Shown here: positions 6,868-35,126 of the stretch, one piece after another
How positions within the stretch are numbered: the first letter of the stretch is position 1
Layout: every line of letters begins with the position of its first letter
Assembly (NCBI GenBank): GCA_014382695.1
Contig: JACNJF010000134.1
Coordinates: forward strand, 1 to 41,042
Source of the DNA: Gammaproteobacteria bacterium
GTDB taxonomy: Bacteria > Pseudomonadota > Gammaproteobacteria > GCA-001735895
Length of the DNA: 41,042 bases
Reading direction: 5' to 3'
The notes under the pieces: model-generated
What the model saw: the letters and a program-made list of their open reading frames with translations, nothing else
The model's database searches: none
Told to the model about the DNA's origin: nothing
Made by a program: the position numbers and the translations under genes

Positions 6868-6903
6868 AAAAAAACAGGCTGCCGATAATAATCTGCTGAG
6901 CCT
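6868..6903 (-). terminator. Hairpin with T7 run just upstream of hisB
   Basis: Read on the minus strand, arms AGGCT and AGCCT (6899-6903 and 6876-6880), with extra GC pairs inside, are followed by TG and then a run of seven T (6874-6868), ending only 14 bases before the hisB start codon. It could end the pip-dtd transcript (dtd stops at 7127) or act as an attenuator in the hisB leader. I saw no His-rich leader peptide in front of it. The stem is short, so confidence is moderate. Confidence 0.45.
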
Positions 6904-6951
6904 AAAAAATACAGCATTAGAATAATCAATAGAAAAGATATTTGCCCCGAT

Positions 6952-6968
6952 CCGGGAAATTTTCCCGG
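6952..6968. repeat. 17-bp palindrome CCGGGAAA-T-TTTCCCGG
   Basis: This is a perfect inverted repeat with 8-base arms around a single T, in the 272-bp gap between dtd and hisB, about 100 bp upstream of hisB. Its symmetry and length suit a dimeric regulator's binding site or a tight RNA hairpin. It has no T run on either strand and so is not a classical terminator. The rest of the gap holds only very short frames. Confidence 0.4.
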
Positions 6969-7126
6969 CTCATCAGGGACACAATCATTTCACTATCGAT
7001 AATTACTGCCTTCTTTCACCTGCTTCAACTTAACGATGAATGGCTCGATTGATTTCACATTGGCCAGGGCAGATAACTGCCAGCCCCTGCTTAATTCTGC
7101 ACCACGTCATCTACCTTCCGAATTCG

Positions 7127-7561: not shown

Positions 7562-8499
7562 AGACACTCCAGCATCGCGTTCGTACACTCGACCAGCGCT
7601 CGCGTCGTCCCCTGCTCTGAAACCGCATGACCGGCATCCGCAATAATCCTTAACTCGCTCCCGGGCCACGCCTGATGCAGCGCATAGGCCTGATCGAGAG
7701 GACAGATCACGTCGTATCGACCATGCACAATATAGCCGGGAATGCCCTTTAATTTATGCGCATTAGCGAGCAACTGATTCGGTTCAAAAAAACTGTTATG
7801 GCTAAAATAATGGCTTTCAATACGCGCGATGCTTAACGCAAGATGGGGGTCAGAAAAATAATCGATCACCGCACTATTTGGCGTCAGGGTTGCCGTACTG
7901 CCCTCCCAGATAGACCAGGCCTTGGCCGCAGACATACGCTCAATTTCATTATCTCCAGTCAGCCTTTTATAATAAGCCCGCACCAGATTACTCTGCTCCG
8001 CTTGCGGAATCGGGGCTAAAAAGTGCTGCCAGGCATCAGGAAACAGGCGTGCCGTTCCGCCCTGATAGAACCAGTCAATATCCTGCTGCCGGCATAAAAA
8101 AATTCCACGTAAAATAAGCCCGAGTACCTTTTCCGGATGAGTCTCCGCATACGCCAGCGCCAGCGTTGATCCCCAGGAACCACCAAATAACACCCATTTA
8201 TCAATGTTGAGATATTCACGGATCTGCTCCAGGTCATCGACCAGATCCTGTGTCGTATTATCTTTCAGGCTCGCATGTGGCCGAGACTTACCGCAACCGC
8301 GCTGATCAAACAACACAATTCGATAGCGCTCCGGATCAAAATAGCGTCGATGGTACGGCTCACAACTGGCACCGGGGCCGCCATGCAGGAAAATCACCGG
8401 AATTCCATCAAGACTGCCACTTTCTTCGATATACAGCTCGTGCTCAGGAGAAACCTGAAGATAATATGTGCGTGATGGCTGAATAACAGGGAATAACAT
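7558..8499 (-). CDS. pip: Proline iminopeptidase
   Basis: This is a cytoplasmic alpha/beta-hydrolase that removes N-terminal proline from peptides. At 313 residues it has the standard length. Visible features are the oxyanion-hole HGGPG (39-43), nucleophile S108 in GGSWGS, D263 in RYDVICPL and H291 in DAGHAVSE. WYQGG-type helical lid segments occur after residue 130. A ribosome-binding site, AAGGA, lies 9 bases before the ATG and touches one arm of the GacA-like palindrome at 8513-8530. It is followed by dtd with a four-base overlap. Confidence 0.95.
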   Translation of the reverse strand: MLFPVIQPSRTYYLQVSPEHELYIEESGSLDGIPVIFLHGGPGASCEPYHRRYFDPERYRIVLFDQRGCGKSRPHASLKDNTTQDLVDDLEQIREYLNIDKWVLFGGSWGSTLALAYAETHPEKVLGLILRGIFLCRQQDIDWFYQGGTARLFPDAWQHFLAPIPQAEQSNLVRAYYKRLTGDNEIERMSAAKAWSIWEGSTATLTPNSAVIDYFSDPHLALSIARIESHYFSHNSFFEPNQLLANAHKLKGIPGYIVHGRYDVICPLDQAYALHQAWPGSELRIIADAGHAVSEQGTTRALVECTNAMLECL

Positions 8500-8831: not shown

Positions 8832-9680
8832 ATGTCTGATCCTGCTCTGAATGACGCCGATATGTTTATTAAACCCCCAAAAAAATTACTACATCTGGCT
8901 GGCAAGGCTATCGCTCAGTTCAATATGATTCAGCCCGGCGACCGAATTCTAGTTGCAGTCTCCGGGGGCAAGGATTCATTGACCTTACTACAGGCATTGC
9001 TCCATTTTCAGCGTCATGCTCCGGTGCATTTTGAAGTAGCGGTCATAACCATAGATCCGCAGAGTGAAGACTTTGACCCATCCCCATTGAAACAGCATAT
9101 GCAACAGCTCGGACTGGATTATTTTTACGTGAGTGAACCCATTGTTCGGCTGGCGTCTGAACATATGAAAAAAGATTCTTTCTGTGCATTTTGTTCGCGT
9201 ATGCGTAGAGGCCTGATGTACAAAACCATGCGCCAGCATCACTACAATGTGTTGGCCCTTGGACAGCATCTGGACGATCTCGCCGAAAGCTTTCTACTGT
9301 CAGCATTACATGGAGGCCAGCTTAAAACTATGAAGGCACACTACATCAATGATGATGGCGATCTTAGAGTCATTCGCCCATTTGTGTATATACGTGAACG
9401 TCAGTTACGCGAGTTTGCGAATAATGCGGAACTACCGGTGATTGAAGATAACTGTCCGGCCTGCTTTGCAAAGCCAACCCAGCGTCAGCATATGAAGGAA
9501 TTACTGGCCGCGCAGGAAGCTGACTACCCGACAACCTTTAAAACTCTACTGTCAACCATGAAGCCACTGATCGCTGATGGCCTGCCCAGTATCGATTCTC
9601 TATTTACGCCAGAAACCAGGGGTAAACAGCACCAGCAGGGTAAAGATTTCGAGTCGACCCAGCAGCATCGCAAGGCATAA
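8832..9680 (+). CDS. ttcA: tRNA 2-thiocytidine synthetase TtcA
   Basis: TtcA is an iron-sulfur, PP-loop enzyme that thiolates cytidine 32 of some tRNAs. It is 282 residues, slightly shorter than the enterobacterial protein (about 311). The ATP-binding PP-loop SGGKDS is at 44-49. Cluster cysteines lie in CAFCSRMRRGLMY (C118, C121) and CPAC (C208, C211). No strong ribosome-binding site precedes the ATG. The last 27 codons overlap the 3' end of trkH on the opposite strand; this tail is polar and probably not structured. Confidence 0.93.
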   Translation: MSDPALNDADMFIKPPKKLLHLAGKAIAQFNMIQPGDRILVAVSGGKDSLTLLQALLHFQRHAPVHFEVAVITIDPQSEDFDPSPLKQHMQQLGLDYFYVSEPIVRLASEHMKKDSFCAFCSRMRRGLMYKTMRQHHYNVLALGQHLDDLAESFLLSALHGGQLKTMKAHYINDDGDLRVIRPFVYIRERQLREFANNAELPVIEDNCPACFAKPTQRQHMKELLAAQEADYPTTFKTLLSTMKPLIADGLPSIDSLFTPETRGKQHQQGKDFESTQQHRKA

Positions 9681-11051
9681 CACCCACTTGGCAAAGTCAT
9701 TGATCGATGCAAAGTTCTGCCCGACCTGATCAAGCCCCGGACCCAGATTATTGAGACAGGCCGCCACAGCGGAAAACGCGGTATCCTGATTCAGACCGGA
9801 AGCCATCAACAGCACAATCATCAGCGCTGAAATTGCAAAATAAGCCGCAAAAAAGCCCCACACGGCTTCAATAACTTTATCCGGAACCGGTTTACGCCCG
9901 ATCTTAACCGCAAACTGAGCCGAAGGATGTATCAGTCGGTGCAGTTCACGCACACCCTGTTTCACCAGCAATAAGATACGGATAACCTTAATTCCGCCAC
10001 CGGTGGATCCGGCGCAACCGCCCATAAAGCTGACATACAGTAACAACACCGGCAGGAATCCCGGCCAGGTATAATATTCGGAAGTGGTAAATCCGGTGGT
10101 GGTGCCGATAGAAACCACATGAAACAGGCCCTCGATAATATTATCCAGTGGCGAATCAAAAGTTTTGGTCAGTAACAGATAGCTAATCGTGATGACGCTG
10201 ACGACCAGCATCACAGTCATATAAGCCTTAAACTCGGCATCTCTCAGATATGGCGTCAGCCGCAGATAGCGCAAAGCGGTAAAATGCAAGGCAAAATTAA
10301 TCCCGGAAAGCAGCATGAACACGATGGCGATTAACTCAATCCCACGGTTATTGAAAAAGCCCATACTGGCATCATGGGTCGAAAAGCCACCGATTGCGAC
10401 GGTCGAAAATGCATGTGAAATAGCGTCGAAGGGATCCATACCTGCCAGCCAGTAGGCCACCCCGCAACTCACGGTCAGTCCCAGATAAATATACCAGAGT
10501 GCTTTCGCAGTTTCGGTAATGCGCGGGGTCAGCTTGGTGTCCTTAACCGGCCCCGGAGTTTCGGCACGATACAGCTGCATTCCTCCAATACCCAGCATCG
10601 GCAATACGGCAACCGCCAGCACAATGATACCCATACCACCCAGCCACTGCAGCTCCTGACGATAAAATAAGGTGGAATGCGGCAGACTATCCAGCCCTAC
10701 AATGACCGTAGCACCGGTTGTAGTCAATCCGGATATCGACTCGAAAACTGAATCGGTAATCGACAGCTCATTGGCATCGGACAGATAGAACGGAAGCCCG
10801 CCGGCGGAGCCCAGCACCACCCAGAACATAACCACCACCATAAAGCCATCACGTAAGCGCAGATCTTTTTTATGCTTGCGAAAAGGGAGAAATAACCCCA
10901 GCCCGCCTACTAATATCAACACAAAAGCTTCCAGGAAGGGCAGCGCCGAATGCTCCTGATAGATCATGTCCACCAGAACTGGGGGCAACATAGTGATACT
11001 GAACACCATCAGCAACAGGCCAAGTATTCTTATAATGACAGGAATCTGCAT
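9600..11051 (-). CDS. trkH: Trk potassium uptake protein TrkH
   Basis: TrkH is the membrane channel subunit of the constitutive Trk potassium importer. It is 483 residues with many hydrophobic segments and four pore-loop repeats: SGLTTTGATV, FSTVAIGGFS, IGTTTGFTTS and AACLNNLGPG, each giving a selectivity-filter position. The C-terminus MLLGRLEIFTLLVLFTPGFWR is the usual TrkH ending, so the 81-bp overlap with ttcA is real and not a misplaced stop. It lies 22 bp after trkA, its cytoplasmic regulator. Confidence 0.96.
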   Translation of the reverse strand: MQIPVIIRILGLLLMVFSITMLPPVLVDMIYQEHSALPFLEAFVLILVGGLGLFLPFRKHKKDLRLRDGFMVVVMFWVVLGSAGGLPFYLSDANELSITDSVFESISGLTTTGATVIVGLDSLPHSTLFYRQELQWLGGMGIIVLAVAVLPMLGIGGMQLYRAETPGPVKDTKLTPRITETAKALWYIYLGLTVSCGVAYWLAGMDPFDAISHAFSTVAIGGFSTHDASMGFFNNRGIELIAIVFMLLSGINFALHFTALRYLRLTPYLRDAEFKAYMTVMLVVSVITISYLLLTKTFDSPLDNIIEGLFHVVSIGTTTGFTTSEYYTWPGFLPVLLLYVSFMGGCAGSTGGGIKVIRILLLVKQGVRELHRLIHPSAQFAVKIGRKPVPDKVIEAVWGFFAAYFAISALMIVLLMASGLNQDTAFSAVAACLNNLGPGLDQVGQNFASINDFAKWVLCLAMLLGRLEIFTLLVLFTPGFWRK

Positions 11052-11073
11052 AATAAACGGGCTATGCGCTTAA

Positions 11074-12450
11074 TTAAAAGAAGGTCGGTGGCACGGAGAA
11101 CAGTTTCTCAACCTGAGAGATATCGCGCTTGTTGGTAATAAACAGAATCACATGATCTTCCGGCTCAACCACGACGTCATGGTGCGCTATCATGACATCA
11201 TCACCGCGCACAATGGCACCGATAATCGTACCTTTCGGCAGCTTAAGCTCATCAATCCGTCGACCCACCACTTTGGATGTTTTGTGATCGCCGTGTGCGA
11301 CCGCCTCAATCGCTTCGGCCGAACCACGACGTAAGGCATGCACCGCAACCACATCACCACGCCGGATATGTGCCAGCATCGCACCAATGGTGACCTGATG
11401 TGGCGATACCGCAATATCGATCAGTCCACTCTCCACCAGCTCAACATAGGCCGGACGATTAATCAGCGACATCACCTTACGTGCACCCAGTCGTTTGGCC
11501 AGCATGGCTGAAAGAATATTGGCTTCATCATCATTGGTTAAAGCACAGAACACATCCATCGATTCGATATTTTCTTCCAGTAACAGGTCAGGATTCGCCG
11601 CATCACCATGTAAAACAATAGAGGAATATAATTCACCAGACAGCTGGTTGGCCCGGCGCAGATCGGTTTCGATCACCTTCACCTGATAGTTTTTTTCCAG
11701 CAGTAACGCCAGTTGTCCACCGATATTACCGCCGCCTGCCAGCATCACCCGTTTATAGGGCTTATCCAGCCGACGCAATTCGGCAATGACCGTTTGAATA
11801 TGCTTTTTAGCCGCAATAAAAAACACTTCATCATCCGCCTCAATCACCTGTTCCGCCGTCGCAGCGAGGGACTTACCCTGTCGAAAAATGGCGGCAACAC
11901 GCATATCGACACCGGGAATATGCTGTCGAATGGTCTGGATTTCCTGACCCACCAGTGGCCCACCATGAAATGCCTTGACCGCAACCAGCTGAACCTTCCC
12001 CTGTGCAAAGTCAAGCACCTGCAGGGAGCCGGGATGCTTGATCAGGCGATGGATATACTCCGTCACCAGATTTTCCGGACTGATAATCACGTCGACCGGT
12101 ATGGAGTTTTCACCAAACAATTCCTTTTTTTGCATGTATTCCTGTGAGCGGATACGTGAAATTTTGGTTGGGGTATGGAATATTGAGTGTGCGACCTGAC
12201 AGGCAATCATATTGATCTCATCGCTATTGGTCAGCGCAATCAGCATATCGGCGTCATCAGCACCCGCCTGCTTTAACACACTGGGATAAGAGCCATTACC
12301 ACAGATAGTTCTTAAATCAAGACGATCCTGCAGATCGGATAAAATATCCTGATCGACATCAATAACGGTAATTTCGTTACTTTCTTCTCTGGCTAGTTCA
12401 GTAGCGACTGAGAAACCGACCTGACCGGCTCCTAAAATTATTATATTCAT
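11074..12450 (-). CDS. trkA: Trk system regulatory subunit TrkA
   Basis: TrkA is the cytoplasmic nucleotide-binding ring that gates TrkH. At 458 residues it holds two tandem RCK units. The first begins MNIIILGAGQVGFSVA, with the acidic strand end TVIDVD, and the second begins near residue 232 with RVMLAGGGNIGGQLA and KVIETD. Each is followed by a TrkA-C domain, as in enterobacterial TrkA. The trkA-trkH order downstream of ntrX is a common gammaproteobacterial arrangement. Confidence 0.97.
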   Translation of the reverse strand: MNIIILGAGQVGFSVATELAREESNEITVIDVDQDILSDLQDRLDLRTICGNGSYPSVLKQAGADDADMLIALTNSDEINMIACQVAHSIFHTPTKISRIRSQEYMQKKELFGENSIPVDVIISPENLVTEYIHRLIKHPGSLQVLDFAQGKVQLVAVKAFHGGPLVGQEIQTIRQHIPGVDMRVAAIFRQGKSLAATAEQVIEADDEVFFIAAKKHIQTVIAELRRLDKPYKRVMLAGGGNIGGQLALLLEKNYQVKVIETDLRRANQLSGELYSSIVLHGDAANPDLLLEENIESMDVFCALTNDDEANILSAMLAKRLGARKVMSLINRPAYVELVESGLIDIAVSPHQVTIGAMLAHIRRGDVVAVHALRRGSAEAIEAVAHGDHKTSKVVGRRIDELKLPKGTIIGAIVRGDDVMIAHHDVVVEPEDHVILFITNKRDISQVEKLFSVPPTFF

Positions 12451-12551
12451 TGGTTAGAAATACTCGGCTGATCAGGATTGAAGAGCAAAACAGGTTCTAT
12501 ACAAACCAGTAATCTGAATGGGCACCAGCGTAACACAGATGATCTTTACTA

Positions 12552-13817
12552 TTATTTTCTGGTTTGAAGTCCCAGTGACTTAAGTTTTCGATATAAATTG
12601 GTTCGTTCCTGACCAATTTTACGCGACAACTCGGTAATATTATAGTGGCACAATTCAAGTTGCTTACTCAGATAATTGCGTTCAAAAAATTCGCGCGCTT
12701 CCCGTAAATCCAGATCAAGGTTGATCGATAGCTGCATAAAATTCAATGATTTTTGATCCAGCGTCTGGCGCGAAATATTCAGAAACTGCTGGATTTCAGT
12801 CAGATCCACATTATCAGCCGTGCTATTTGCCAGTATCTGTCGAATCACTGACTTAAGCTCGGTCAACCCACCCTGCCAGAAATGATTGCGAAACATATTC
12901 TGACCGGCTACGCCAAAATGGCGGTAAGGCAAGGACTCTTTTTCGCTGTACCAGGTTACATAATACTCAACCAGCTCGGGAATATCTTCGATACGCTCAT
13001 TTAAAGAGGGTATATACATCGCCTGACGCCAGTGCTCTGCCAACTCGGGTAACACGCCGTCATGACTCATCAGCGCATCGTAAGTAGATTGACTGGCTAC
13101 AATCAGGCGCCCTCTGGACGCGACTGTTTTCAAATGATTAATCAGCGACAGCAGCTGTTTTTGCTGCTCCAGATTTAAGTCGGTGACCTCGGGTATGAAC
13201 ACGTTCTCTGACAGGCCGTTCTGGTAGGCTTTCAATCCAGTATAAAATGAGGCTGTATTGGTCCTGACCTTTTGCAGCGAATACAAATAACGAGCCCAGA
13301 TCCGGATCCCGGAACCGGGCTGCCCGGTCAGGTAAACCGGACTCAGATCCTGCGCGAGAGCCTTCATGGTCTGACGTAAAACCTGCATCTGATGACTGTT
13401 ACCGACCGGTAACTCGATCTGCTCCGGCTTTTCCAGGTCGCTGGTATTGACTCTGCTGGATAAGGCTGAATTTACTGTTCGTAACAGCTTTGCCGTGGAA
13501 AGTGGCTTTTCGACAAAATCGAAAGCGCCAAAACGGGTCGCTTCAACGGCGGTTTCAACCGTGCCGTGACCCGACATCATCACCACCGGACAGACTAGCG
13601 ATTTCTGTTCATTCCACTGTTTTAGCAGGGTTACCCCATCCATATCCGGCATCCAGATATCGAGTAGAATCAGATCCGGTGAAAACAATTGTTTCTGCTC
13701 AGCAGCCTGAATCGCATTTTCCGCAACGTTAACCTCATAGCCTTCATCTTCAAGGATATCCTTCAGCAATAAGCGAATATCCGGCTCATCATCTACGACT
13801 AAAATTTTAGTACTCAT
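12552..13817 (-). CDS. NtrX-like response regulator with degenerate sigma-54 ATPase domain
   Basis: At 421 residues it has an intact N-terminal receiver: acidic DDEPD, phospho-acceptor D53 in LLDIWMPDMDG, and FVEKPL. A central AAA+ region follows, then a C-terminal Fis-type helix-turn-helix (ITELSRKIGQERTNLYRKLK). The central domain is eroded: the Walker A position reads GQPGSGIRIW, with Ile where the catalytic Lys should be; the GAFTGA loop that contacts sigma-54 is absent; and Walker B reads VFIPEV instead of LFLDEV. It therefore probably cannot activate sigma-54 and may act as a phospho-controlled DNA-binding protein. It is paired with NtrY upstream. Confidence 0.88.
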   Translation of the reverse strand: MSTKILVVDDEPDIRLLLKDILEDEGYEVNVAENAIQAAEQKQLFSPDLILLDIWMPDMDGVTLLKQWNEQKSLVCPVVMMSGHGTVETAVEATRFGAFDFVEKPLSTAKLLRTVNSALSSRVNTSDLEKPEQIELPVGNSHQMQVLRQTMKALAQDLSPVYLTGQPGSGIRIWARYLYSLQKVRTNTASFYTGLKAYQNGLSENVFIPEVTDLNLEQQKQLLSLINHLKTVASRGRLIVASQSTYDALMSHDGVLPELAEHWRQAMYIPSLNERIEDIPELVEYYVTWYSEKESLPYRHFGVAGQNMFRNHFWQGGLTELKSVIRQILANSTADNVDLTEIQQFLNISRQTLDQKSLNFMQLSINLDLDLREAREFFERNYLSKQLELCHYNITELSRKIGQERTNLYRKLKSLGLQTRK

Positions 13818-13875
13818 GAACAGACTCTAAACAAATTCATATGGAAATACCTGGCTGAACCCGGTATTGGATAAA

Positions 13876-16044
13876 TCAGGCATTCGTCTCAGGCACCTTA
13901 ACTGATATCACCGGTAGACGTAGAATAAATCTAGCACCGCCGGTTTCACTGTTTTCGGCCCAGACCAGTCCATTGTGCTCATCCACAATTTTCTTCACTA
14001 TTGCAAGCCCGAGCCCACTCCCGCTACTTTTTCCAGTCACATAAGGTTCAAATAGCGTATCCATTATGCCCGCACTGATCCCTTTACCACTATCTGCCAC
14101 CGTCAGTTCAACATAATGGCAGCCGTACTCTTCAACGCACTGGGTCGATAAACGGATCCAGCCTTTATCATTAATGGCCTCAGAAGCATTTTTCATCAAA
14201 TTATGGATTAACTGTCTGAGCCTCACCGCATCCGCCTGAATTTCGGGCATTTTCATATCCAGATTCAACTGTATATCGATACTTTTCCTGTTTTCGATAT
14301 ACAGCTCCACCACTTCACGGATCATCTGGTTCAGATCCATATTCTGCAGATTGGGACTGGGAGCTCGTGCAAAATCGGTAAAATTATTGACCATCAGCTT
14401 CATCGCTTCGACCTGTTGCACGATAGTATGGGTATAGCGATCAAGCATTTCCTGCTTTTCTTTATCGACCTGCCCCGCCAGCTTGCCCTGCAAACGTTCG
14501 GCAGATAACTGAATCGGCGTTAACGGGTTTTTGATTTCATGCGCCAGCCTTCTCGCCATTTCACTCCAGGCCGAGTTTTTCTGCGCCTGTATCAGCTCGG
14601 TCAAATCATCGATCACGATCACCTGCTCCCGCACTATCTGAAACTTCTGCTCCAGCTCTGAACCACGAACACGTAAAACCTTGCGTCCATTCTGGCCAAA
14701 AATAATAATTTCTTCATGCCATTCCTGCCTGTTTTTCACATTTTGGGTGATGACGTCAAAGAAGCGTCCTAACTGCGGATAGCTCTGAATCAGCTGATCC
14801 GTGGTTCTTTCGTTCAGTGTCCCTGTGTCCAGCCCAAAAATCATTTCCGCGGCACGATTGCCCTGCTTGATTACCCCGGCCTCATCGATCGTCATGACCC
14901 CTGAGTTGATATGCTCCAATACCGACTGCAGATAGCTTTTCTGCAGCGCTTCCATCATCTGACTCTGATCCGCTATCGCCCGTGCACGTGAAATTTTACG
15001 TGTCATGGTATTAAACGAACGTGTCAGAAAGCCCAGCTCATCATCGCCCGACAGGGGGAGCTGTTTGGCATAATCACCCGCTGCAACGGCCTGAGTACCC
15101 TCAACCAGATCATTGATCGGGGACACAAGTTTGCGCGCAGCGATAAACGCTATCCAGATTGCCGATAACACACTCAGCAGCCAGACCAGCGATAGCGCCA
15201 TAGTAAAGCTGGTTTTAAGAGGATCACGTAAAACCGATAATTCACGGTATTTTTCGTAAGCCCTCTGCACCACCTGAGTCAACTCATTGACCTGGTCGGT
15301 AATCGGAAACAGGGTTTGTAGAATTTTCTTTTGCTCAATCGTGGACAGATCGAACACCGGTACCACCACTCGAATCTGCAGACCACTATCCGGGTCCTGT
15401 TCCAGTTTCAGATAATGATCATCCTGCCCCAGACTGCCAAACTCGGTACGCCCCAGAGCGCTCGGCATTTCAGCAGAGTTTTCACTACTGGACCCCAGAA
15501 TTACACCATTTAAGCCCACCAGAGTAATTTCCTTGGCCCGATGCAGAGACAGTGCATCATTCAGGTATACAATCAGGAATTCATCCGGCACAGTCGGAAT
15601 TTCCCTGGCAATCAGGCGGGATTTCTTTAGCGCTTCACGTTTGCGTAAATCCAGCGCACTACGCCCAAGCTTGAGCGAATCTTCCAGTGCCTGTTCCACC
15701 CCCACATCGAACCAGCTATCAATGCTTCGATGCAGAAATGTGAGCGAAAAGTAGTACACGATACTGACCGGAATAATCGTCAATATCACGAATATACTAA
15801 TCATCCGGGTGGTTAAGCGGGAACCGATGGCTTTCAGGCGATACTGGAGTATCAGTTTAAAAACGTTATAGGCGATCAGTCCGAGTAATACAATCAGGCC
15901 TACCGCATTAAAAAATACCAGTAAATTGTAATACTTGCCGAAGCTGGCCGAGTTTGAGGTTGCGTCACTAATCGAGTAAAGCGACACGAACAGCAGAATA
16001 ACTAGCGCGATAACCGGAGCCGAATTACGTAACGCACTGTTCAC
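13876..16044 (-). CDS. NtrY-like sensor histidine kinase
   Basis: This is an inner-membrane histidine kinase of the NtrY type, about 722 residues. In order: two closely spaced N-terminal membrane segments, a third before a long periplasmic region, a fourth near residue 295, HAMP, a PAS segment (YLQSVLEHINSGVMTIDEAG), the H-box RRLAHEIKNPLTPIQ with phospho-acceptor His at about 502, and ATPase boxes NLMKNASEA, DSGKGI and GSGLGLAI. The frame extends to GTG 16059, but GTG 16044 overlaps the preceding stop as GTGA and has GGAG nine bases before it. It lies 58 bp before ntrX, its likely partner. The signal sensed is not known. Confidence 0.92.
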   Translation of the reverse strand: MNSALRNSAPVIALVILLFVSLYSISDATSNSASFGKYYNLLVFFNAVGLIVLLGLIAYNVFKLILQYRLKAIGSRLTTRMISIFVILTIIPVSIVYYFSLTFLHRSIDSWFDVGVEQALEDSLKLGRSALDLRKREALKKSRLIAREIPTVPDEFLIVYLNDALSLHRAKEITLVGLNGVILGSSSENSAEMPSALGRTEFGSLGQDDHYLKLEQDPDSGLQIRVVVPVFDLSTIEQKKILQTLFPITDQVNELTQVVQRAYEKYRELSVLRDPLKTSFTMALSLVWLLSVLSAIWIAFIAARKLVSPINDLVEGTQAVAAGDYAKQLPLSGDDELGFLTRSFNTMTRKISRARAIADQSQMMEALQKSYLQSVLEHINSGVMTIDEAGVIKQGNRAAEMIFGLDTGTLNERTTDQLIQSYPQLGRFFDVITQNVKNRQEWHEEIIIFGQNGRKVLRVRGSELEQKFQIVREQVIVIDDLTELIQAQKNSAWSEMARRLAHEIKNPLTPIQLSAERLQGKLAGQVDKEKQEMLDRYTHTIVQQVEAMKLMVNNFTDFARAPSPNLQNMDLNQMIREVVELYIENRKSIDIQLNLDMKMPEIQADAVRLRQLIHNLMKNASEAINDKGWIRLSTQCVEEYGCHYVELTVADSGKGISAGIMDTLFEPYVTGKSSGSGLGLAIVKKIVDEHNGLVWAENSETGGARFILRLPVISVKVPETNA

Positions 16045-27026: not shown

Positions 27027-27260
27027 TTATTCACACTCTTCATCGAATATCACAGAGTATTCTTTCTTGCTCAGTTTGCCATCCTTATCTTTATCGAGTG
27101 ACTTGAGCTCTTTCTTGACGCCACTTTTGGCAAACTCTGCAGCATCTACAAAACCATCGGCATTCACATCAGCAGCCTTGAATTTGATCGGAGCAGCCAG
27201 AGCCACGTTAGAAAACAGAAGCGCAGCGCAGGCTGCCAGTGTTAATTGCGTGTATTTCAT
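27027..27260 (-). CDS. Small exported EF-hand calcium-binding protein
   Basis: This is a 77-residue protein with a signal peptide (cleavage after NVALA, near residue 22). Two EF-hand loops fill the mature part: residues 31-42 (D31, N33, D35, D39, E42) and 56-67 (D56, D58, D60, S64, E67), both with all ligand positions intact. The mature protein is only about 55 residues, i.e. one EF-hand pair. It probably binds calcium in the periplasm or outside; its partner is unknown. Single-gene unit ending in the bidirectional terminator. Confidence 0.85.
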   Translation of the reverse strand: MKYTQLTLAACAALLFSNVALAAPIKFKAADVNADGFVDAAEFAKSGVKKELKSLDKDKDGKLSKKEYSVIFDEECE

Positions 27261-27321
27261 AAATTTATACCTGTTAAAAATTAAGTGTTTAGACTAAATC
27301 ATGGATTATTTTAAGTCCAAT

Positions 27322-27371
27322 AAAAAGCCTCGAACAAGAGTGTAGCTTTACTCAAAACCCTTGCAGAGGCT
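27322..27371 (-). terminator. Terminator of the CsgG-like operon
   Basis: On the minus strand, AGCCTC and GAGGCT (27371-27366 and 27331-27326) close a long arm with further pairing inside (CAAG...CTTG), followed by a T run (27326-27322). It begins 12 bases after the CsgG-like stop and so ends the five-gene exported-protein operon. Confidence 0.7.
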
Positions 27372-27382
27372 CTCTTATTAAA

Positions 27383-28327
27383 CTAGTTCTGCAGTTTAAC
27401 CAGATCATTGGTCTTGAAGCCACTGCCGGAAATAACCGTTGCAACCGAACCATCTTTGCCGAAAAATCCGCTGATTTTAAGCTGGCCTCGAACAACGCCG
27501 GGTGCCCGACCTAATGGTACACCAGTCTGAGGGTCGATAATCTCTTCTCCGAGTTCCTGAACCGTAAGCATATCACCGACACTCAATCCGGTTAATTGAC
27601 CTGCATTAATATAGATCGTGTTTCCTTTGACCTGTGCAATGCGACCCGCCCACAGACTCCCGGTCAACTGGCCCAGAATTTTATTCATGGCCTTGCCAAG
27701 TGCATCACGCAAGGCACCGTCCTTTAGCGAGGTATCATGCGAACTCTTGGAGCCAAAACCGAGCAAGCCACCACTGGTTTTACGGAACTCCCCTTCGCCA
27801 TGCGATGCAAACAGCTGTATACCCGTTGTGGTGTCCACAATACGATAATCCACACCTACTTTCGCGACCTGAGTTTTGGATTGCGACAGCAGCGTGTTGG
27901 AGCCCTCAACCAGTTCAGCATAGCTGGTGATAGAGCCTGTCAGAATAGCATTCAGGCCCAGTACCTTGCCCATTTCAGCCGCAGTGCTGGAACTGATGAC
28001 ACCTGAAGCCCCCAGTTTTTGCTGCTGTATAATCGACTCCATGTCCTGCTGTGGAATCACGATAAAATTACCGGTTTCGTGCAGCATGGTGGTCAGAATA
28101 TTAGTTGCGGCTGTTTCTATCCCACGTACCTGACGAGGAGTATTGTTTTCAAAATTAACCACGCCCACACGAAGTTTAGGCCCTTTATAATCAACCTTAG
28201 TGATCGCAACTTCATCAACCTGAACATTTAAACTTTCATTGTGAACAGTTTTGGTTGAGGGCGTACAGCCCGCCAGTATGATGGCACTACCCAGCATAAT
28301 ACTTTTAATCATTTGAATTTTTTTCAT
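27383..28327 (-). CDS. CsgG/HfaB-family outer-membrane lipoprotein
   Basis: The ATG at 28327 is chosen over the frame's earlier start because GAGGGTG lies just upstream and it gives a proper lipoprotein signal (ILAGC, C21). The 314-residue protein has the CsgG core: LRVGVVNFENNT, a GIETAATNILTTML helix, IPQQDMESIIQQQKLGASG, the AILTGSITSY strand and VDYRIVDTTTG. CsgG itself forms a nine-fold secretion pore for curli; HfaB acts in holdfast anchoring. The extra C-terminal 90 residues look like a beta-rich domain (INAGQLTGLSVGD). No curlin genes are near, so the cargo is unknown. It is the last gene of the operon. Confidence 0.88.
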   Translation of the reverse strand: MKKIQMIKSIMLGSAIILAGCTPSTKTVHNESLNVQVDEVAITKVDYKGPKLRVGVVNFENNTPRQVRGIETAATNILTTMLHETGNFIVIPQQDMESIIQQQKLGASGVISSSTAAEMGKVLGLNAILTGSITSYAELVEGSNTLLSQSKTQVAKVGVDYRIVDTTTGIQLFASHGEGEFRKTSGGLLGFGSKSSHDTSLKDGALRDALGKAMNKILGQLTGSLWAGRIAQVKGNTIYINAGQLTGLSVGDMLTVQELGEEIIDPQTGVPLGRAPGVVRGQLKISGFFGKDGSVATVISGSGFKTNDLVKLQN

Positions 28328-28352
28328 TACTATTATCACCCTCTTTTATATT

Positions 28353-29069
28353 TTAAATTCCTGGCCCATTGCGCAGAGTTTTAGTGGCATAGTTAACCAT
28401 CGATATCGATTCATCAGTAAGCACCGTATCGGTCATACTGCTGATAGCCTTTTCGACCAGCCCGCTGATTAGATTGCCCAAAACGGAGCCGTCGCCACCG
28501 GTTTTTCTTTCAATCGTAATCCAGGTAACTTCTTCATCCTGACCATCCGATATGGAGCTCGCCAGAGATGCAAGATTGCCTAATAAATCATCACTTCTGG
28601 ATTCACTTTTTATACCGATATCGCTGTTCCAGAATACACTATCATCACGCGCCTGAACCATTTTCAATTCTGCTCTCACCCGATTCGTATTCAATACGCC
28701 TGAGGTAGTCTGATCATAATGGGTCACATTCCCGTAAATATAGGCATCTGCAACTATACTGCTTTTAATCGCGCTGAACTCAACCTCAGATAACTGTTCA
28801 CCCAGGGTTATTCCAAGTCTGTCGAGCATCACCTGATCAACTTCGGCTCGTGGTGTTACCTTATAAAATTTCGTGGTTAACTTCTGTTCCAGTAAATCGC
28901 GAATCTGATTTGGCGCATCGACACTGTTACTCTCATTCGCAAAAGGCAGGATTACAACCGTGTGAATGGGATTGGTCAAATCCGGTTGCGGCACTGGAAT
29001 ATTGATGCAGCCGGAGATAAATCCGGTAATTAAAAGTACTACGGCCCATTTTGTAAAACGTTTATTCAT
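28353..29069 (-). CDS. GNA1162/DUF799-like (LpoB-like) lipoprotein
   Basis: This is a 238-residue lipoprotein with lipobox ISGC (C21). The core HTVVILPFANESNSVDAP, then MLDRLGITLGEQLSEVEFSAI and ADAYIYGNVTHYDQ resemble the neisserial GNA1162 (DUF799) family and, more loosely, LpoB-type activators. All share a CsgG-like alpha/beta fold. A later Gly/Ser-rich stretch is less conserved. GNA1162-type genes often sit beside CsgG-type genes, as here, 25 bp upstream of the CsgG-like gene. The exact family needs a profile search. Confidence 0.7.
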   Translation of the reverse strand: MNKRFTKWAVVLLITGFISGCINIPVPQPDLTNPIHTVVILPFANESNSVDAPNQIRDLLEQKLTTKFYKVTPRAEVDQVMLDRLGITLGEQLSEVEFSAIKSSIVADAYIYGNVTHYDQTTSGVLNTNRVRAELKMVQARDDSVFWNSDIGIKSESRSDDLLGNLASLASSISDGQDEEVTWITIERKTGGDGSVLGNLISGLVEKAISSMTDTVLTDESISMVNYATKTLRNGPGI

Positions 29070-29151
29070 TATTTATTTCCTCTTATTTTTTGAGTTTCCC
29101 ATTTTTTTGCCCTGAACTTTCAGGCATTCCCCCTGAGCGCCTGAAGTTTAT

Positions 29152-30546
29152 TTATTTCCTGCCAAGGTTCATTTCCAGCGTCGTTAACAGATCCTCTTTT
29201 ACTGCTTTTATCAGCAGTGCCGCTGATTTTTCTGCCGCACTATCACTGGTTAAAGCCCCCGCCTTGGTGGCTTCTGCATTGATCCGGATTGTCTTTAAGG
29301 TACGATTGCTGGCTCCACTCTTAATATTAATGACACCATTGATCTTGGCAAAGTGCATGCCCTGGTAACCGGGGAAGTCCATCACAGTACCCTGCACATC
29401 GATATAATAATCAGCCCTACCTGAAAAGTTATCCTGCTCCGTATACACCTGATAATTCTGCTCAGACAATACACTGGCCAGTCCATCATTAACGCTCAGG
29501 TAAAGATAATCATTGCTTTTACTTTTGATATTTGAGCGCAATTGAACCGATACATCGGATTTCTGCCCCAGCAATACCACCAGTTCAGTGAACGGAGAGT
29601 TATTGATAAAAAGCGCTTCATCCAGATCCAGCTTAACCCTGATTTTATTTTCCGGCTTACCGGTATAGGGCAGAGACCTTACCCGCACACTCAGCCGTCC
29701 CTGCAAATCGGTCATCGAGTCATGATCTAGAACCGCGCCTTCAATCTCCGGAATAACCGCAACAGGAACCCGCTTCAGCGGTTGTCCACGATAACTGAAT
29801 ACCACATTAAACGGTTCACTCACACCCAGCTCCGAGGATCCGGTCTGCTGACGCTCACCAACGGTAGAAACACTTAGCTGCTTAAAGGTTGATGACAGAT
29901 ACTGGTCAAACTCACTGATCAGACTTAACACTTCGTCTCTCAACAGGCTATTTGAGCCCGCATCTGCAAACAGCTGATGCAGCGCTACATCACCTGTTAT
30001 CTGCTTGAACAACTGACTGCTCTTCAGTAGTAGAATCATTGCCTCAGAGCTATCGGAGCGTGCAAACAGTTTTTTTACCTGCTCAAGCTGAGCACGCAGC
30101 TGATCAAACTGACTTTCAATCTGGAACGAAATGCTGGCCGCATTTTTTATCTTATCCAGTACCGCAAAAGCATAGTAACTGCCATTACCCGGTTTAAAGT
30201 GCTGGCCTGCAATCGTGATGCCTTCGATATTATCCAGATTGACCTGAGTACTAATCTGGACATGCATATTTTCCTGCTTTTCAAACTTATCAGCAGTGGA
30301 ACGATATTCTTTTACAATATTACTCTGACTGGAAATACTGACTTTTAACTGCTCGGCCAGACTTGAGTAGGCACTTTTACGAGCATCTTCCGAACTGCTG
30401 CCTTCTCCCACTGCCGTCAGGTATCGGCTGTCACGATAGCCATCCATCCCTCCACCATAAATCCAGTTGGGGTCATCCGCCTGCAAAGCGAAACTGGCAC
30501 AACCCAAACTCGAACATAAAATGAAAACCAGTGCAAATAGCTTCAT
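29152..30546 (-). CDS. Exported LPP20-like domain protein
   Basis: This 464-residue exported protein has a signal peptide ending near FALQA; an earlier Cys in SLGC is not a canonical lipobox. Residues 40-135 carry an LPP20-type domain (YLTAVGEGSSSEDARKSAYS then LAEQLKVSISS). A helical middle (about 140-220) and beta-rich C-terminal half follow, with PFNVVFSYRGQPLKRVPVAV and DVQGTVMDFPGYQGMHFAKI. The large beta-rich part may be a carboxypeptidase-regulatory-like fold. LPP20 relatives include flagellar FlgP and Helicobacter Lpp20. Function here is not known; the middle gene of the five-gene exported operon. Confidence 0.72.
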   Translation of the reverse strand: MKLFALVFILCSSLGCASFALQADDPNWIYGGGMDGYRDSRYLTAVGEGSSSEDARKSAYSSLAEQLKVSISSQSNIVKEYRSTADKFEKQENMHVQISTQVNLDNIEGITIAGQHFKPGNGSYYAFAVLDKIKNAASISFQIESQFDQLRAQLEQVKKLFARSDSSEAMILLLKSSQLFKQITGDVALHQLFADAGSNSLLRDEVLSLISEFDQYLSSTFKQLSVSTVGERQQTGSSELGVSEPFNVVFSYRGQPLKRVPVAVIPEIEGAVLDHDSMTDLQGRLSVRVRSLPYTGKPENKIRVKLDLDEALFINNSPFTELVVLLGQKSDVSVQLRSNIKSKSNDYLYLSVNDGLASVLSEQNYQVYTEQDNFSGRADYYIDVQGTVMDFPGYQGMHFAKINGVINIKSGASNRTLKTIRINAEATKAGALTSDSAAEKSAALLIKAVKEDLLTTLEMNLGRK

Positions 30547-30561
30547 GTTTTACTCCTTATA

Positions 30562-31275
30562 TCATTGCATACGACTGGCAGCGACAAACTGCTCAAACTC
30601 TTCAATTTCCGAGTTTACACTCGGATCAAGCGGAGCTCTAACAGCCTTTTTGCCATCAAACTGAAGCGCAAATCCTGCTTCCAGCTGAATCGATGCCTTA
30701 TAAGCCACAAACTCTTCCATCATCTGCTGTTTAAACTCCTGAAATTCAGTCATCTGCTGCTTACGATAAAGCTCAAACTCGTCTAACTCACGCTGCCGGT
30801 AAAGCTGAAACAACTCATCATCATTGGAATCAAAGTTCAGCGCTCCCTCCACCAGAGAGACACGCTCTTTAGAGTTATCGGCCTGGTCTGTATCAATAAT
30901 AAACTTGGTTCCACGTATGCCGAGGGTAGCGGTAGAGGTCTGGACCGCTACATTTCTATCCTTCCCGCTGGAAATAAAATAATAGATTTTGCCAAACAGA
31001 TGGCTAAAAAATCCCGGCTTTACCAGTTTAATGGTCGCATTCTGATTCGCAATTAACACGTCGCCCTGCTGCGTTTTAATCGCTATTCGTTGTCCATCAC
31101 CGGTTTTAATTTCACTATCTTCGGCTATTCTGGTCCCCGCAGGATAGTCCGGCATATTTTCGGAGCGAATAACTTCACCCATGCTCTGCGCGTGTACAAC
31201 CCCTGTTAACAGGGTCAGCAGCAGAAATATAGAGCCCAGTTTGAATCCCGTGAGGAGGCGCATTAACATATTCAT
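30562..31275 (-). CDS. Exported FecR-domain protein with 11-residue repeats
   Basis: This is a 237-residue protein. A signal peptide ends VVHA-QS. Residues 40-150 form a FecR-type beta domain (AGTRIAEDSEIKTGDGQRI, TSTATLGIRGTKFIID, VSLVEGALNF). Residues 155-200 hold four 11-residue repeats with EF-x-x-aromatic-basic spacing (for example DEFELYRKQQM and TEFQEFKQQM). No transmembrane anti-sigma helix as in TonB-linked FecR, so this is the stand-alone secreted form. Its start overlaps the previous gene's stop by four bases. It shares the repeat with the transglutaminase-like protein encoded upstream. Confidence 0.85.
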   Translation of the reverse strand: MNMLMRLLTGFKLGSIFLLLTLLTGVVHAQSMGEVIRSENMPDYPAGTRIAEDSEIKTGDGQRIAIKTQQGDVLIANQNATIKLVKPGFFSHLFGKIYYFISSGKDRNVAVQTSTATLGIRGTKFIIDTDQADNSKERVSLVEGALNFDSNDDELFQLYRQRELDEFELYRKQQMTEFQEFKQQMMEEFVAYKASIQLEAGFALQFDGKKAVRAPLDPSVNSEIEEFEQFVAASRMQ

Positions 31276-32771
31276 AAGTTTGATATAACCTTAGGGGTAA
31301 CATTCTTGAACTGTGGCATTTTCATGCCCGCGCTTGCATTGATATAAGTTGGATCCGCAATCGTATACTGCTTATGCTGATAGCTGATCACATCACCCAG
31401 TGGATTTTTGAGCTCAACTGCGGTCGCCACGTGGCCAGGGAAATCGAGGCCAACTACATTCAAGCCCAGTAGATTCTTTACCAGCCAGGCAAAAAACACG
31501 GCTCTATCTTCACAGTCTGAAGCAGGGTAAAAAATTGTCTCTTCGGCGAACATATAATTCTCTTCCCCGAACTGATCCTGATCGGTGGCATAGCGAAAGG
31601 CTTTCTGCACAAAGCGCAACAGCAAATTGACCGCCTCAGTCTCCGACATATCGTTAACCATCGGCCTTAACTGAGACAGCAGTGCTGTGGCGGTAGACGA
31701 ATTCAGCGGTGATTGAAAATACTCATTAATGTCCATCTGCGGATAACTGGACAAAAAATCGACGGTATAGCGGTTAAACGGGACGTTCAATTCATATTTT
31801 TTTTGCTGATAAGAAAAACTCAGATGTTTTGTCTGTGTATCAGGCTTGCTACTGAGTGGCTGGGTCAGCGCGAAATCGGACAGCTTCAGGCTTTTCGGGT
31901 AGTTACCGTCATAGGAATAAAGATTTGGCGGTAATTTTTTCTGGCGACTGACTGAATAATACTTTTGAGCACCAAACTTAAAGTAGGCAATGTCATACAG
32001 ATTCTGACTCGCAGGAACCAGCAGGTAAATACGCGATGAATCATACGCTATCCTCGCATCCAGATCGGATTTCAGCAGCAAAAACCAGCTCACAACACTC
32101 CCCATATTATCGGATGCCGTTAATTGCTTGGTAAATTGCTGTACCAGACGTACATAAGCCCAGTCATTCAGATTCAGCTGACGTTTAAGCTTAGTCAATT
32201 GCTGTAAAGTTTGAGGATAATCAGACTGGGCCAGTTGGCTAAACTTAAGCTGGATACCGGACTGGGAAACGATCAGTCCCGACATACTCACGGAAGAAGA
32301 GATGCCATCAACTATCGAAAGCTGATGACCGAGAAACTCAATATTGACCCCTTTCTGGGTCAGAACAGGAGGCTCGGGCGGAATAATAATCACCGGTTCA
32401 GGGATGATACGCGGCAGCGGTATTTCTGCTACTCGAGGTTCGGGTTTGGCTGGCTTCACTACTACAGGTGGTTTTTTATCATCAATTCGGACAACGGGGA
32501 TACGTGGGGGCTTTGGCGCTTCATCACGAATAACACCCTTTTCCGTGTCGAAAGGCTTCCATTGCTGATTCAGGAAATCCGCAAACTCCCGGTCCATTTC
32601 ATCCTTATATTGTTTAAACTCCCCCATGTACTGTCGCTTCCATTGCTCAAACTCAGCCATGGACTGAGCGGCGGATAATGCAGGCAACAACATAGTCGAG
32701 ACTATTAGACATTTCAACAGGCGCGAAGCCGTTACTGAGGAGGTCAAACTGAATGGCAAGAAGACTTTCAT
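31272..32771 (-). CDS. Exported transglutaminase-like cysteine protein with 11-residue repeats
   Basis: This is a 499-residue exported protein, first in the operon. A signal peptide ends ALSA-AQ. Residues 37-68 hold three 11-residue repeats (AEFEQWKRQYM, GEFKQYKDEM, DREFADFL). Residues 75-135 are a Pro-rich linker (KPPRIPVVRI, IIPPEPPVL). After a beta-rich middle comes a transglutaminase-like core with Cys-His-Asp C420 (PASDCEDRA), H447 (FPGHVATAV) and D473 (IADPTY). It could be a protease, an amidase or a cross-linking enzyme; the triad does not say which. It differs from LapG in layout. Confidence 0.8.
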   Translation of the reverse strand: MKVFLPFSLTSSVTASRLLKCLIVSTMLLPALSAAQSMAEFEQWKRQYMGEFKQYKDEMDREFADFLNQQWKPFDTEKGVIRDEAPKPPRIPVVRIDDKKPPVVVKPAKPEPRVAEIPLPRIIPEPVIIIPPEPPVLTQKGVNIEFLGHQLSIVDGISSSVSMSGLIVSQSGIQLKFSQLAQSDYPQTLQQLTKLKRQLNLNDWAYVRLVQQFTKQLTASDNMGSVVSWFLLLKSDLDARIAYDSSRIYLLVPASQNLYDIAYFKFGAQKYYSVSRQKKLPPNLYSYDGNYPKSLKLSDFALTQPLSSKPDTQTKHLSFSYQQKKYELNVPFNRYTVDFLSSYPQMDINEYFQSPLNSSTATALLSQLRPMVNDMSETEAVNLLLRFVQKAFRYATDQDQFGEENYMFAEETIFYPASDCEDRAVFFAWLVKNLLGLNVVGLDFPGHVATAVELKNPLGDVISYQHKQYTIADPTYINASAGMKMPQFKNVTPKVISNL

Positions 32772-33190
32772 TTTATTTACAACCCTGTATTTCTAATACA
32801 AAAATTAGTCGAAATATTCGGCCCAGAAGCGCACAATCAATCGATAAAACATCAAGGATTCGCTATCTTTCTACGCTTGGAGATCACTTTTAATTTTCTC
32901 TCGCTGATAAAACACGACTCAACGACTGTTTTAAAACATCAAATGTGTACTCGAAAACTGGCCGTATATAATACGGTCCGCTTGTTCACCATTTCGAACT
33001 GAAAAATCCCAACAGATCAGCTCACCGCAAAATGGATCATATATCCAGATTGAATTTGCAGACACTTAATGCGACTATAAGCCATGGTTTTTAAACCTGC
33101 CGATGTAGCTCTAAACAACACCCGAACAGCAGTTCGAAAACATTATAATTTGATTAGACTATAACAGACAATATTAAAAGGAGATATATA
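32772..33190. other. Divergent regulatory interval between the exported operon and LPP20 gene
   Basis: This gene-free gap of 419 bp is AT-rich. It holds a perfect inverted repeat CCGTAT-ATA-ATACGG (32962-32976) whose centre looks like a -10 element on either strand, possibly an operator over a promoter of the minus-strand operon. Near the right end TATAAT (33144-33149) and a strong AAAAGGAG ribosome-binding site (33175-33182) precede the LPP20 ATG. No other convincing coding frame is seen. Confidence 0.45.
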
Positions 33191-33778
33191 ATGAATCCCA
33201 CCCTTAATGCAAAAATCATTTTCCTCGCCGCCAGCCTGGCTCTGGCAGGCTGCGCATCTCCACCAGAACCTGCTGCCGATCTGGCAGAATGCGTGTTCCC
33301 GGATGCCCCTACGGAAAGTGCACCACTATGGGTTTGTGATTCACCCATTGAGGGTGTAGAACTGAGCGCAGTAGGCTTTGCGCAACCCTCCAAAGCGGGT
33401 AACTCGTTTATGAAACAGATGGCAACAGCAGACGCCAGAGTTCAACTGGCAGCCACTTTCAAAACTCGCGTACAGAATATGATCAAGCAATACGCGGAAA
33501 CCACTGGTTCAGCCGATAGCGAAACCGTGAATCGTGTGAATACTTCAGTCTCTAAATTGATTACCAATGAAACCCTGGTAGGCTCTCGAGTGTTCAGAAC
33601 CCGCACCAGCCCCAGCGGTGGTCTGTATGTTCTGGTTGGACTGGATACGGCAAATGTACAACAGGCCGCGAAGGACAGCATCCAGACCAGCATGAACAAT
33701 GATCAGGCACTGTGGCAGGAGTTCAAGGCCAAGAAAGCACATGATGAACTGGCTGTAGAAATTTCAAAAATGCAATAA
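33191..33778 (+). CDS. LPP20-family lipoprotein
   Basis: This is a 195-residue outer-membrane lipoprotein: signal ending LALAGC (C21), then SAPLWVCDSPIEGVELSAVG, and the LPP20 domain with KQMATADARVQLAATFKTRV and a C-terminal GGLYVLVGLDTAN strand. Its start has an excellent ribosome-binding site, AAAAGGAG. It is divergent from, and probably co-regulated with, the five-gene exported operon, which has its own LPP20-like protein. Relatives act in flagellar outer rings or as adhesins, but no flagellar gene is present here. A 10-bp hairpin follows. Confidence 0.85.
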   Translation: MNPTLNAKIIFLAASLALAGCASPPEPAADLAECVFPDAPTESAPLWVCDSPIEGVELSAVGFAQPSKAGNSFMKQMATADARVQLAATFKTRVQNMIKQYAETTGSADSETVNRVNTSVSKLITNETLVGSRVFRTRTSPSGGLYVLVGLDTANVQQAAKDSIQTSMNNDQALWQEFKAKKAHDELAVEISKMQ

Positions 33779-33847: not shown

Positions 33848-34447
33848 TCAGTCCGCTTCATTCAGCAACCGGACCAGCTCCACTACGATCTCTTCAGGTG
33901 TTGCATTATGTGGCGAAAAATAACGTAGCACACCGTGCCGATCAACCAGATAAATGACGGAGCTATGATCTAGCACATAACCCATCGCTGAATCTTTCAA
34001 CGCCACTTTCTGATACACCACACTGTACTGACGAGCGACCTTATCCAGACTCTCCTGGCTATCGGTCAGCCCGATAAAACTCTCATAAAAGCCTTTTACA
34101 AATAAAGCCATTGCTGATGGGGAATCACGCTCTGGGTCCAGCGAAACAAAAACACCCTGTACCTGAGCAGCCTGTTCAGGCGTTAACAGACGCATGGCCG
34201 AAGATAGATTCCACAGCGAGGTCGGACAGATATCAGGGCAGGACATGTAGCCAAAATAAATGGCCACCACCCGGCCCTTAAAATCACTCAAGGAAACCGG
34301 TCCCTGCGCGGACTGCAGAGTAAACTCTCCGCCATTATCTGGTAGCAGGCTACTGCCCTGCTGCTTCAGCGCGAGCTGCCCCAGCCACAGGGCCGCAAAA
34401 AAACAAACCAGGATGATCCAGAAATAAACCGCTCTCTTATTGTTCAT
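33848..34447 (-). CDS. SCO1/SenC-family copper chaperone
   Basis: This is a thioredoxin-fold, membrane-anchored protein that delivers copper to the CuA site of cytochrome c oxidase. It is about 199 residues. An N-terminal anchor helix (YFWIILVCFFAALWLGQL) precedes the copper site CPDICP (CxxxC) and the distal His in VLDHSSVIYLVD. The frame reaches a TTG at 34459 that overlaps the stop of the PCu(A)C gene; the ATG at 34447 is equally possible and chosen. The pairing with PCu(A)C is a known copper-delivery set. Confidence 0.93.
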   Translation of the reverse strand: MNNKRAVYFWIILVCFFAALWLGQLALKQQGSSLLPDNGGEFTLQSAQGPVSLSDFKGRVVAIYFGYMSCPDICPTSLWNLSSAMRLLTPEQAAQVQGVFVSLDPERDSPSAMALFVKGFYESFIGLTDSQESLDKVARQYSVVYQKVALKDSAMGYVLDHSSVIYLVDRHGVLRYFSPHNATPEEIVVELVRLLNEAD

Positions 34448-34455
34448 CAGTCGGC

Positions 34456-34947
34456 TCAATGCTTCATCATCGGCGGCAGGCTTCCATCTATCTGGTGCCC
34501 CTGCATCTGCTTCATCTTATGCATCATCACCCTCTGTACCGGTATCAGTAGTTGCTTTTCACTGCCATCGGATAAAATCAGGGTTAGCTCTATCTCATCT
34601 CCAGGATTCAGATCACGCTTCAGCCCCAGCAGCATCACATGCAATCCACCCGGCTGTAAGCTCACCGTTTGCCCGGCAGGCAATTCAATCTGACTGATTT
34701 TGCGCATCCGCATCACCCCCTGATCATTGATATGGGTATGTAACTCGACGATGCCCGCAACCGGACTGCTGGCCGATACTACGGCAGCCGTCTCAGTCGG
34801 ATTGCGCAACTGCATAAACGCGGCACTGTTGCGCTGCTGCATGATGGCTGCGCGCGCAAATGGGTTTTCTACCACCAGTTGGCTAGCCACATCGGCAACA
34901 GCATTGAAAGCCAGCGAGCACGTGGCCAGTACATAAAGAAGTTTCAT
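34456..34947 (-). CDS. Periplasmic PCu(A)C copper chaperone
   Basis: It binds Cu(I) and passes it to Sco or the oxidase. The ATG at 34947 is chosen, with GAGGGA seven bases upstream, giving MKLLYVLATCSLAFNAVA as signal. Family copper ligands: the His/Met set in HTHINDQGVMRM and the LHVM segment near residue 113. The last 25 residues form a further Met/His-rich tail (MMHKMKQMQGHQ and PPMMKH) that may add copper sites. Next gene is Sco, with overlapping ends. Confidence 0.92.
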   Translation of the reverse strand: MKLLYVLATCSLAFNAVADVASQLVVENPFARAAIMQQRNSAAFMQLRNPTETAAVVSASSPVAGIVELHTHINDQGVMRMRKISQIELPAGQTVSLQPGGLHVMLLGLKRDLNPGDEIELTLILSDGSEKQLLIPVQRVMMHKMKQMQGHQIDGSLPPMMKH

Positions 34948-35126
34948 CAGCAAATCCCTCATAGTGGTTTAACAAAACCAGCCAAGGCTACTCTAATGAC
35001 ACCTGAAGCAAAAGTGGCATATTGTCGCAACAGGCGCCTTAGCATTCAGCAGCGCTGCCAAATTTGTGCATACTTTAAATAACGCCTGCTTTTCAATCAA
35101 ATCATAACATTCGAAATTAATAATAT

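Follow-up and report, generated by a model that had tools for sequence, protein, structure and literature searches.

Periplasmic proteases of the LapG type, which control adhesins according to the literature, offer the best structural match to the protein around which the present locus is arranged, an exported transglutaminase-like protein designated here TG. LapG (Peptidase_C93) and TG have in common the transglutaminase fold, predicted in the case of TG, a Cys-His-Asp triad and export to the periplasm; they differ in that the TG family gives no match to PF06035 (Peptidase_C93/LapG) in Pfam scans, and in that TG has an additional hendecad helix, a proline-rich linker and a middle domain. The lytic transglycosylase MltC provides a second comparison. 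Proteins with SLT and MltC_N domains adjoin TG in other genomes, and the TG-linked ones carry EF hendecads that are absent from the four classical MltC proteins of TG-negative genomes inspected.

Two further systems resemble the locus in their lipoproteins. The CsgG-DUF4810-GNA1162 locus, which we take to be of the Neisseria NMB1124-1126 type, also brings CsgG-like and GNA1162-like lipoproteins close together, as is the case in the relatives G011, G015 and G104; the cluster studied here lacks the small intervening lipoproteins and is linked to TG, FecR and LPP20 genes. The H ring of Vibrio (FlgO/FlgP/FlgT) shares with it the LPP20 family, to which FlgP belongs, and a CsgG-clan protein with a FlgT_C-like domain, although the cluster is not near flagellar genes and its FlgT_C match lies below cut-off. 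In Helicobacter, LPP20 and LpoB-clan lipoproteins occur as well, and the LpoB homologue (HP1457) has been linked to envelope maintenance and, together with its operon partner HP0018, to peptidoglycan remodelling, the role of HP0018 being argued from synteny with the LpoB homologue and from a pulldown of MltD and AmiA (PMC11394524). We found no mention there of a TG enzyme or of FecR, and the relation to the TG loci is by family only; we regard the case as a parallel to them and not as a test.

Organization of the gene cluster

The window, that is, the whole stretch of gammaproteobacterial DNA analyzed (41,042 nucleotides), contains six ORFs of interest, all of which were confirmed at the coordinates given in Table 1. 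A Pfam scan agreed with the family assignments of the initial annotation (CsgG, PF03783, 4.2e-24; GNA1162-like, 5e-13; LPP20, 1e-9 and 5e-8; FecR, 1e-6), and PF02169 (LPP20) was over its cut-off of 25.9 bits in both LPP20 proteins of the cluster (33.8 and 39.0 bits), which are the only two in the whole 4-Mb genome. The five minus-strand genes follow each other in the order TG, FecR, LPP20-domain protein, GNA1162-like and CsgG-like, with a 4-base overlap at the first junction and gaps of 15, 82 and 13 bases at the next three; the gene of the LPP20 lipoprotein LPPb is divergent. The initial annotation had described five adjacent exported minus-strand genes sharing one terminator, plus a divergent LPP20 lipoprotein, and the ORFs, the signal sequences and the hairpin bear this out; the hairpin was missed by a simple terminator scan because its loop is long. 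Signal sequences are present on all six products. Clear lipoboxes were found in the CsgG-like protein (LAGC), the GNA1162-like protein (ISGC) and LPPb (LAGC), while the lipobox pattern gave no match in TG, the FecR protein or the 464-aa LPP20 protein, which by eye look like ordinary secreted periplasmic proteins.

Table 1. Coordinates of the features in the window
Feature	Position	Strand	Description
TG	31272..32771	-	exported transglutaminase-like Cys-His-Asp protein, 499 aa
FecR-domain periplasmic protein	30562..31275	-	237 aa; C-terminal EF..[YFW]K hendecads, residues ~164-200
LPP20-domain periplasmic protein	29152..30546	-	464 aa; secreted, probably not lipidated
GNA1162-like lipoprotein	28353..29069	-	238 aa
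CsgG-like lipoprotein	27383..28339	-	318 aa; ATG at 28327; CsgG/LpoB-clan domain and weak FlgT_C/TsaP-like C-terminal domain
LPPb, LPP20-family lipoprotein	33191..33778	+	195 aa; conserved TG partner
Terminator-like hairpin with U-tract, 3' of the CsgG-like gene	27312..27384	-	73 nt, -29.4 kcal/mol, z -4.85
Divergent intergenic region TG/LPPb	32772..33190	.	sigma-70-like sites, at most suggestive

Downstream of the cluster and past the terminator, the same strand encodes a small secreted EF-hand protein of 77 aa (27027-27260; Pfam EF-hand 9e-11). On the other side, SCO1/SenC and PCu(A)C copper-chaperone genes recognized by Pfam (33848-34962) directly adjoin the divergent LPPb gene, and by sequence LPPb has the same neighbors in the related genome G007 (locus L168). 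PADLOC detected no defence family, its sole match being a marginal AbiEii.

TG has an invariant triad and a predicted transglutaminase fold

Profile scans found no Pfam or NCBIfam family model for TG: the LapG model NF045674 reached 12.5 bits against a cut-off of 320, and among 63 homologues there were few weak transglutaminase or LapG matches, the LapG model being weakly matched by five. A sequence search of solved structures with the TG profile returned nothing useful. The motif SDCEDR...PGH...DPT nevertheless supplies a triad, Cys420, His447 and Asp473, that is invariant in 63/63 aligned homologues; triad and signal peptide are in keeping with the earlier assignment of a secreted Cys-His-Asp enzyme.

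After the signal peptide come a hendecad helix (residues ~37-69), a proline-rich linker (85-140), a middle domain (140-345) and the catalytic domain (345-499). The AlphaFold2 model (pLDDT 86) predicts accordingly a long N-terminal helix, the proline-rich linker, the middle domain and a domain of transglutaminase fold. LapG is the best structural match to this model (Z 11.4, rmsd 3.7 A, 140 residues), followed by TglA, human transglutaminases (TG2) and the pseudomurein endoisopeptidases PeiP/PeiW. As Foldseek by itself returned no match with an E-value under 0.001, the model supports the fold class, with no close relative among solved structures. It was also noticed in the model that residues 170-273 may form a second, degenerate transglutaminase-like unit.

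The likeness to LapG raises the alternative that the locus is a proteolytic switch, in which TG would be a periplasmic protease that clips a surface or outer-membrane protein, the LPP20 and CsgG-clan lipoproteins would present the substrate and FecR would regulate. The structural match and the five weak LapG hits argue for it, and so does the known role of LapG-type enzymes. Neither adhesin nor LapD-like nor type 1 secretion genes, however, were recognized as recurrent neighbors of TG in 86 loci whose neighbors are partly annotated, and the same holds for genes of the LapA type. Moreover, the window genome has a separate, true Peptidase_C93 (LapG) gene (G000:C172:8100-8417, locus L178), so that TG is not simply the LapG of that genome. 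We consider the proteolytic switch unlikely.

Distribution of TG and its association with LPP20 proteins

A scan of GTDB genomes confirmed at least 551 TG relatives across many phyla; the best 80 of them come from Gammaproteobacteria, Calditrichota, Cloacimonadota, KSB1, Desulfobacterota and others, and a search of a plasmid collection added a TG from Bacteroides finegoldii (Bacteroidota). When all neighbors were clustered without prior choice, the LPP20 family was the commonest neighbor of TG (59/86 loci). The density of LPP20 genes is 0.245 per kb within 2.5 kb of TG versus 0.003 per kb beyond 5 kb, a difference of about 80-fold. Among 143 related genomes, TG is present in 10, LPPb in 10 and both in 9 (p = 2e-12); with genomes collapsed to genera, the only way in which phylogeny was handled in these tests, LPPb occurs in all seven TG genera versus one of 98 others. 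Three genomes (G043, G087 and G092) carry TG and LPPb on different contigs, so the relationship is one of co-occurrence and not of adjacency alone. A FecR homologue follows TG in nine loci, belonging to the window genus and to Calditrichota; in the Cloacimonadota loci no LPP20 gene was found beside TG. Caspase-domain (Peptidase_C14) proteins with CARDB were also observed near TG in KSB1 and Poribacteria (L072:2070-4418 and L091:738-2555), together with a DUF4384 protein in L091.

The co-occurrence of the whole set, which the initial annotation had put forward as the means of checking its proposal, was therefore found in part: the TG-LPP20 pair recurs across phyla and the TG-FecR pair extends to Calditrichota, but the CsgG-like and GNA1162-like genes lie beside TG only within the window genus. 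Such a distribution bears on the alternative that the locus is made of two ordinary modules standing side by side with no joint function, one a TG/FecR/LPP20 set of wide distribution, the other a lipoprotein pair of CsgG and GNA1162. The relatives G011, G015 and G104 indeed have CsgG and GNA1162 apart from TG, in a locus of four genes (L131-L133), and G003 has TG-FecR without the 464-aa LPP20 protein, GNA1162-like or CsgG-like genes. Against this stand G007, which keeps the full order TG-FecR-LPP20-GNA-CsgG, and G006, in which the two halves of the cluster lie on separate contigs that both break off within the LPP20 gene. In B. finegoldii, furthermore, a single run comprises an LpoB-clan protein whose FlgT_C domain is weak, then DUF6175, two LPP20 proteins and an unknown protein, and lastly TG, that is, a CsgG-clan gene joined with LPP20 and TG. 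We judge the side-by-side arrangement quite improbable; the grouping of the genes is not due to chance.

The likeness of the Bacteroides run is at the domain level only, since BLASTP found no significant match between the 464-aa LPP20 protein and its counterpart in domain from Bacteroides; for the CsgG-like profile against the LpoB/FlgT_C protein the probability was 6%, and no likeness beyond the domain level is claimed there. DUF6175, a family of unknown function (L177:3484-4749 in that run), may by its position be a counterpart of the GNA1162-like protein.

In the open-licence papers searched we found no published description of the TG-LPP20-FecR set, in keeping with the initial annotation, to which it matched no system that could be named. 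What appears to be undescribed in that literature is the TG family and its pairing with LPP20, the component families being known.

Cell-wall enzymes near TG and a shared hendecad repeat

An MltC-type lytic transglycosylase adjoins TG in five loci. The MltC proteins with EF hendecads (EF-type) and the classical ones, separated by score and by inspection of twelve sequences and not by a formal tree, differ in their association with TG: EF-type MltC is accompanied by TG in 6/8 genomes (p = 5e-7), the other two being of the same genus, and classical MltC in 0/11. Five genomes of the window genome's genus have EF-type MltC, and none was found in the window genome itself (assembly 96% complete), where there is likewise no LpoB besides the CsgG-like gene. 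LpoB-type lipoproteins occur in six TG loci, with a large TPR lipoprotein, and were seen by eye also in G092, G117 and G129; nearly the whole set lies in one stretch in G117 and G129, and the same set is on a contig separate from TG in G092. In Cloacimonadota, a PBP1A-type synthase (Transgly and Transpeptidase domains) is encoded near TG. TG stands there in a steady run with the PBP1A-type synthase and a glycosyltransferase (L082:5476-7875), without LPP20. In many gammaproteobacterial loci, the neighbors left over are cytochrome-maturation or DsbA-like genes, which were set aside as what may be local synteny.

An 11-residue helical repeat, EF..[YFW]K, is common to the N-terminus of TG (EFEQWKRQYMG-EFKQYKDEMDR-EFADFL), the C-terminus of the FecR protein (EFELYRKQQMT-EFQEFKQQMME-EFVAYK) and the N-terminus of the MltC-type proteins that stand beside TG elsewhere. 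The strict pattern was present in 35/86 TG, 5/9 FecR and 3/4 MltC proteins, in one of 1038 other neighbor ORFs and in approximately none of the shuffled sequences; the aromatic residues of the hendecads recur at lags 3, 8, 11 and 14. DsbA-like ORFs that matched a looser pattern did so by chance, through the active-site stretch EFFWYGCPHC, and were lost under the stricter one. We infer from the repeat that TG, FecR and the lytic transglycosylase would share a coiled-coil dock.

The CsgG-like and GNA1162-like lipoproteins

CsgG relatives form outer-membrane secretion pores, and the initial annotation had suggested such a pore, with a dedicated enzyme processing or cross-linking its cargo. The Pfam match given above, a profile match of 1e-10 to the solved CsgG and the outer-membrane-type character of the lipoprotein agree with it. 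The hairpin-equivalent regions, however, have 27 and 58 residues versus ~33 and 67 in E. coli CsgG (6 and ~9 shorter), as judged against a comparison sequence taken in part from the profile alignment, and they are not visibly amphipathic. Regions of the same short lengths are present in the three relatives whose CsgG and GNA1162 genes make up a lipoprotein locus of their own. CsgF (PF10614), the curli partner searched for, had no match in the window genome, and no cargo gene was found near the cluster. Given the shorter hairpin regions and the missing CsgF, a secretion pore is unlikely; with cell-wall enzymes as neighbors of TG instead, and CsgG-like genes beside TG in a single genus, the suggestion is not supported, and we regard it as decidedly improbable. 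An AlphaFold2 model built from two sequences of the CsgG-like protein had a pLDDT of 34, and no inference on a pore was drawn from it. Viral contigs contained no CsgG relatives. Elsewhere, the locus L130 encodes a CsgG-like protein with hairpin regions of full length, 33 and 67 residues (6545-7639), close to a protein 1670 aa or more in length (8992-14001), and is, by its sequence, a better candidate than the window cluster for a real CsgG-type export locus.

Outside the window genus, LpoB-type proteins and lytic transglycosylases stand in for the CsgG-like and GNA1162-like genes near TG. The CsgG-like protein itself scored 34.8 bits with TIGR02722 (LpoB), below the cut-off of 110.55, and PF13036 was over its own cut-off. 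Its C-terminus weakly resembles FlgT_C (15.5 bits versus a cut-off of 27; PDB profile match to FlgT 0.007). This weak resemblance is what stands of the earlier idea that the LPP20 proteins build ring structures, whereas the rod and hook genes of the window genome are on other contigs. An outer-membrane ring of the FlgO/FlgP/FlgT kind, belonging to a flagellum or another machine and with TG clearing the wall for it, would account for an LPP20 protein beside a CsgG-clan protein of this sort, in a genome that has flagellar genes and only the two LPP20 proteins of the cluster. Yet no flagellar gene was recognized as a recurrent neighbor of TG in the 86 loci, FlgT_C is nowhere over cut-off in the window genome, and TG-LPP20 is present in Bacteroides, which are not known to be flagellated. 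The ring is highly improbable.

Discussion

As the TG/LPP20 set recurs beside cell-wall enzymes across several phyla, it looks like envelope maintenance and not like an export pore. The reading that we favor, with a probability of about 0.5, makes the locus a module for outer-membrane/peptidoglycan maintenance and TG a hydrolase. The location of the module and its partners are well supported. At its core would be the secreted cysteine hydrolase TG and a dedicated outer-membrane lipoprotein, LPPb, with the hendecad dock gathering TG, the lytic transglycosylase and the FecR protein. On the outer-membrane side, scaffolding or regulation may fall to CsgG-clan lipoproteins (here the CsgG-like and GNA1162-like proteins, elsewhere LpoB) and LPP20-domain proteins. 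During wall remodelling, TG would then cleave a peptide bond, either of the sacculus or of an envelope protein; that it joins one is less likely.

Some of the data count against the maintenance module. The closest folds to the TG model include adhesin proteases as well as wall enzymes, the window genome is without EF-type MltC, and the Cloacimonadota TG genes have no adjoining LPP20. It is with more reserve that we put forward the broader proposal of an undescribed periplasmic machine of several diderm phyla, in which hydrolases of a new transglutaminase-fold family, a lytic transglycosylase and a FecR protein would be joined through one shared hendecad coiled coil, with LPP20 and CsgG/LpoB-clan lipoproteins attaching them to the outer membrane.

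The shared hendecad motif offers a direct and simple test of interaction. LPP20 lipoproteins, found widely as envelope proteins and antigens, have a poorly known function, and an enzyme that co-occurs tightly with them provides a testable biochemical partner. If peptidoglycan or wall-linked proteins prove to be the substrate of TG, the known wall hydrolases of diderm bacteria would gain a class with the transglutaminase fold.
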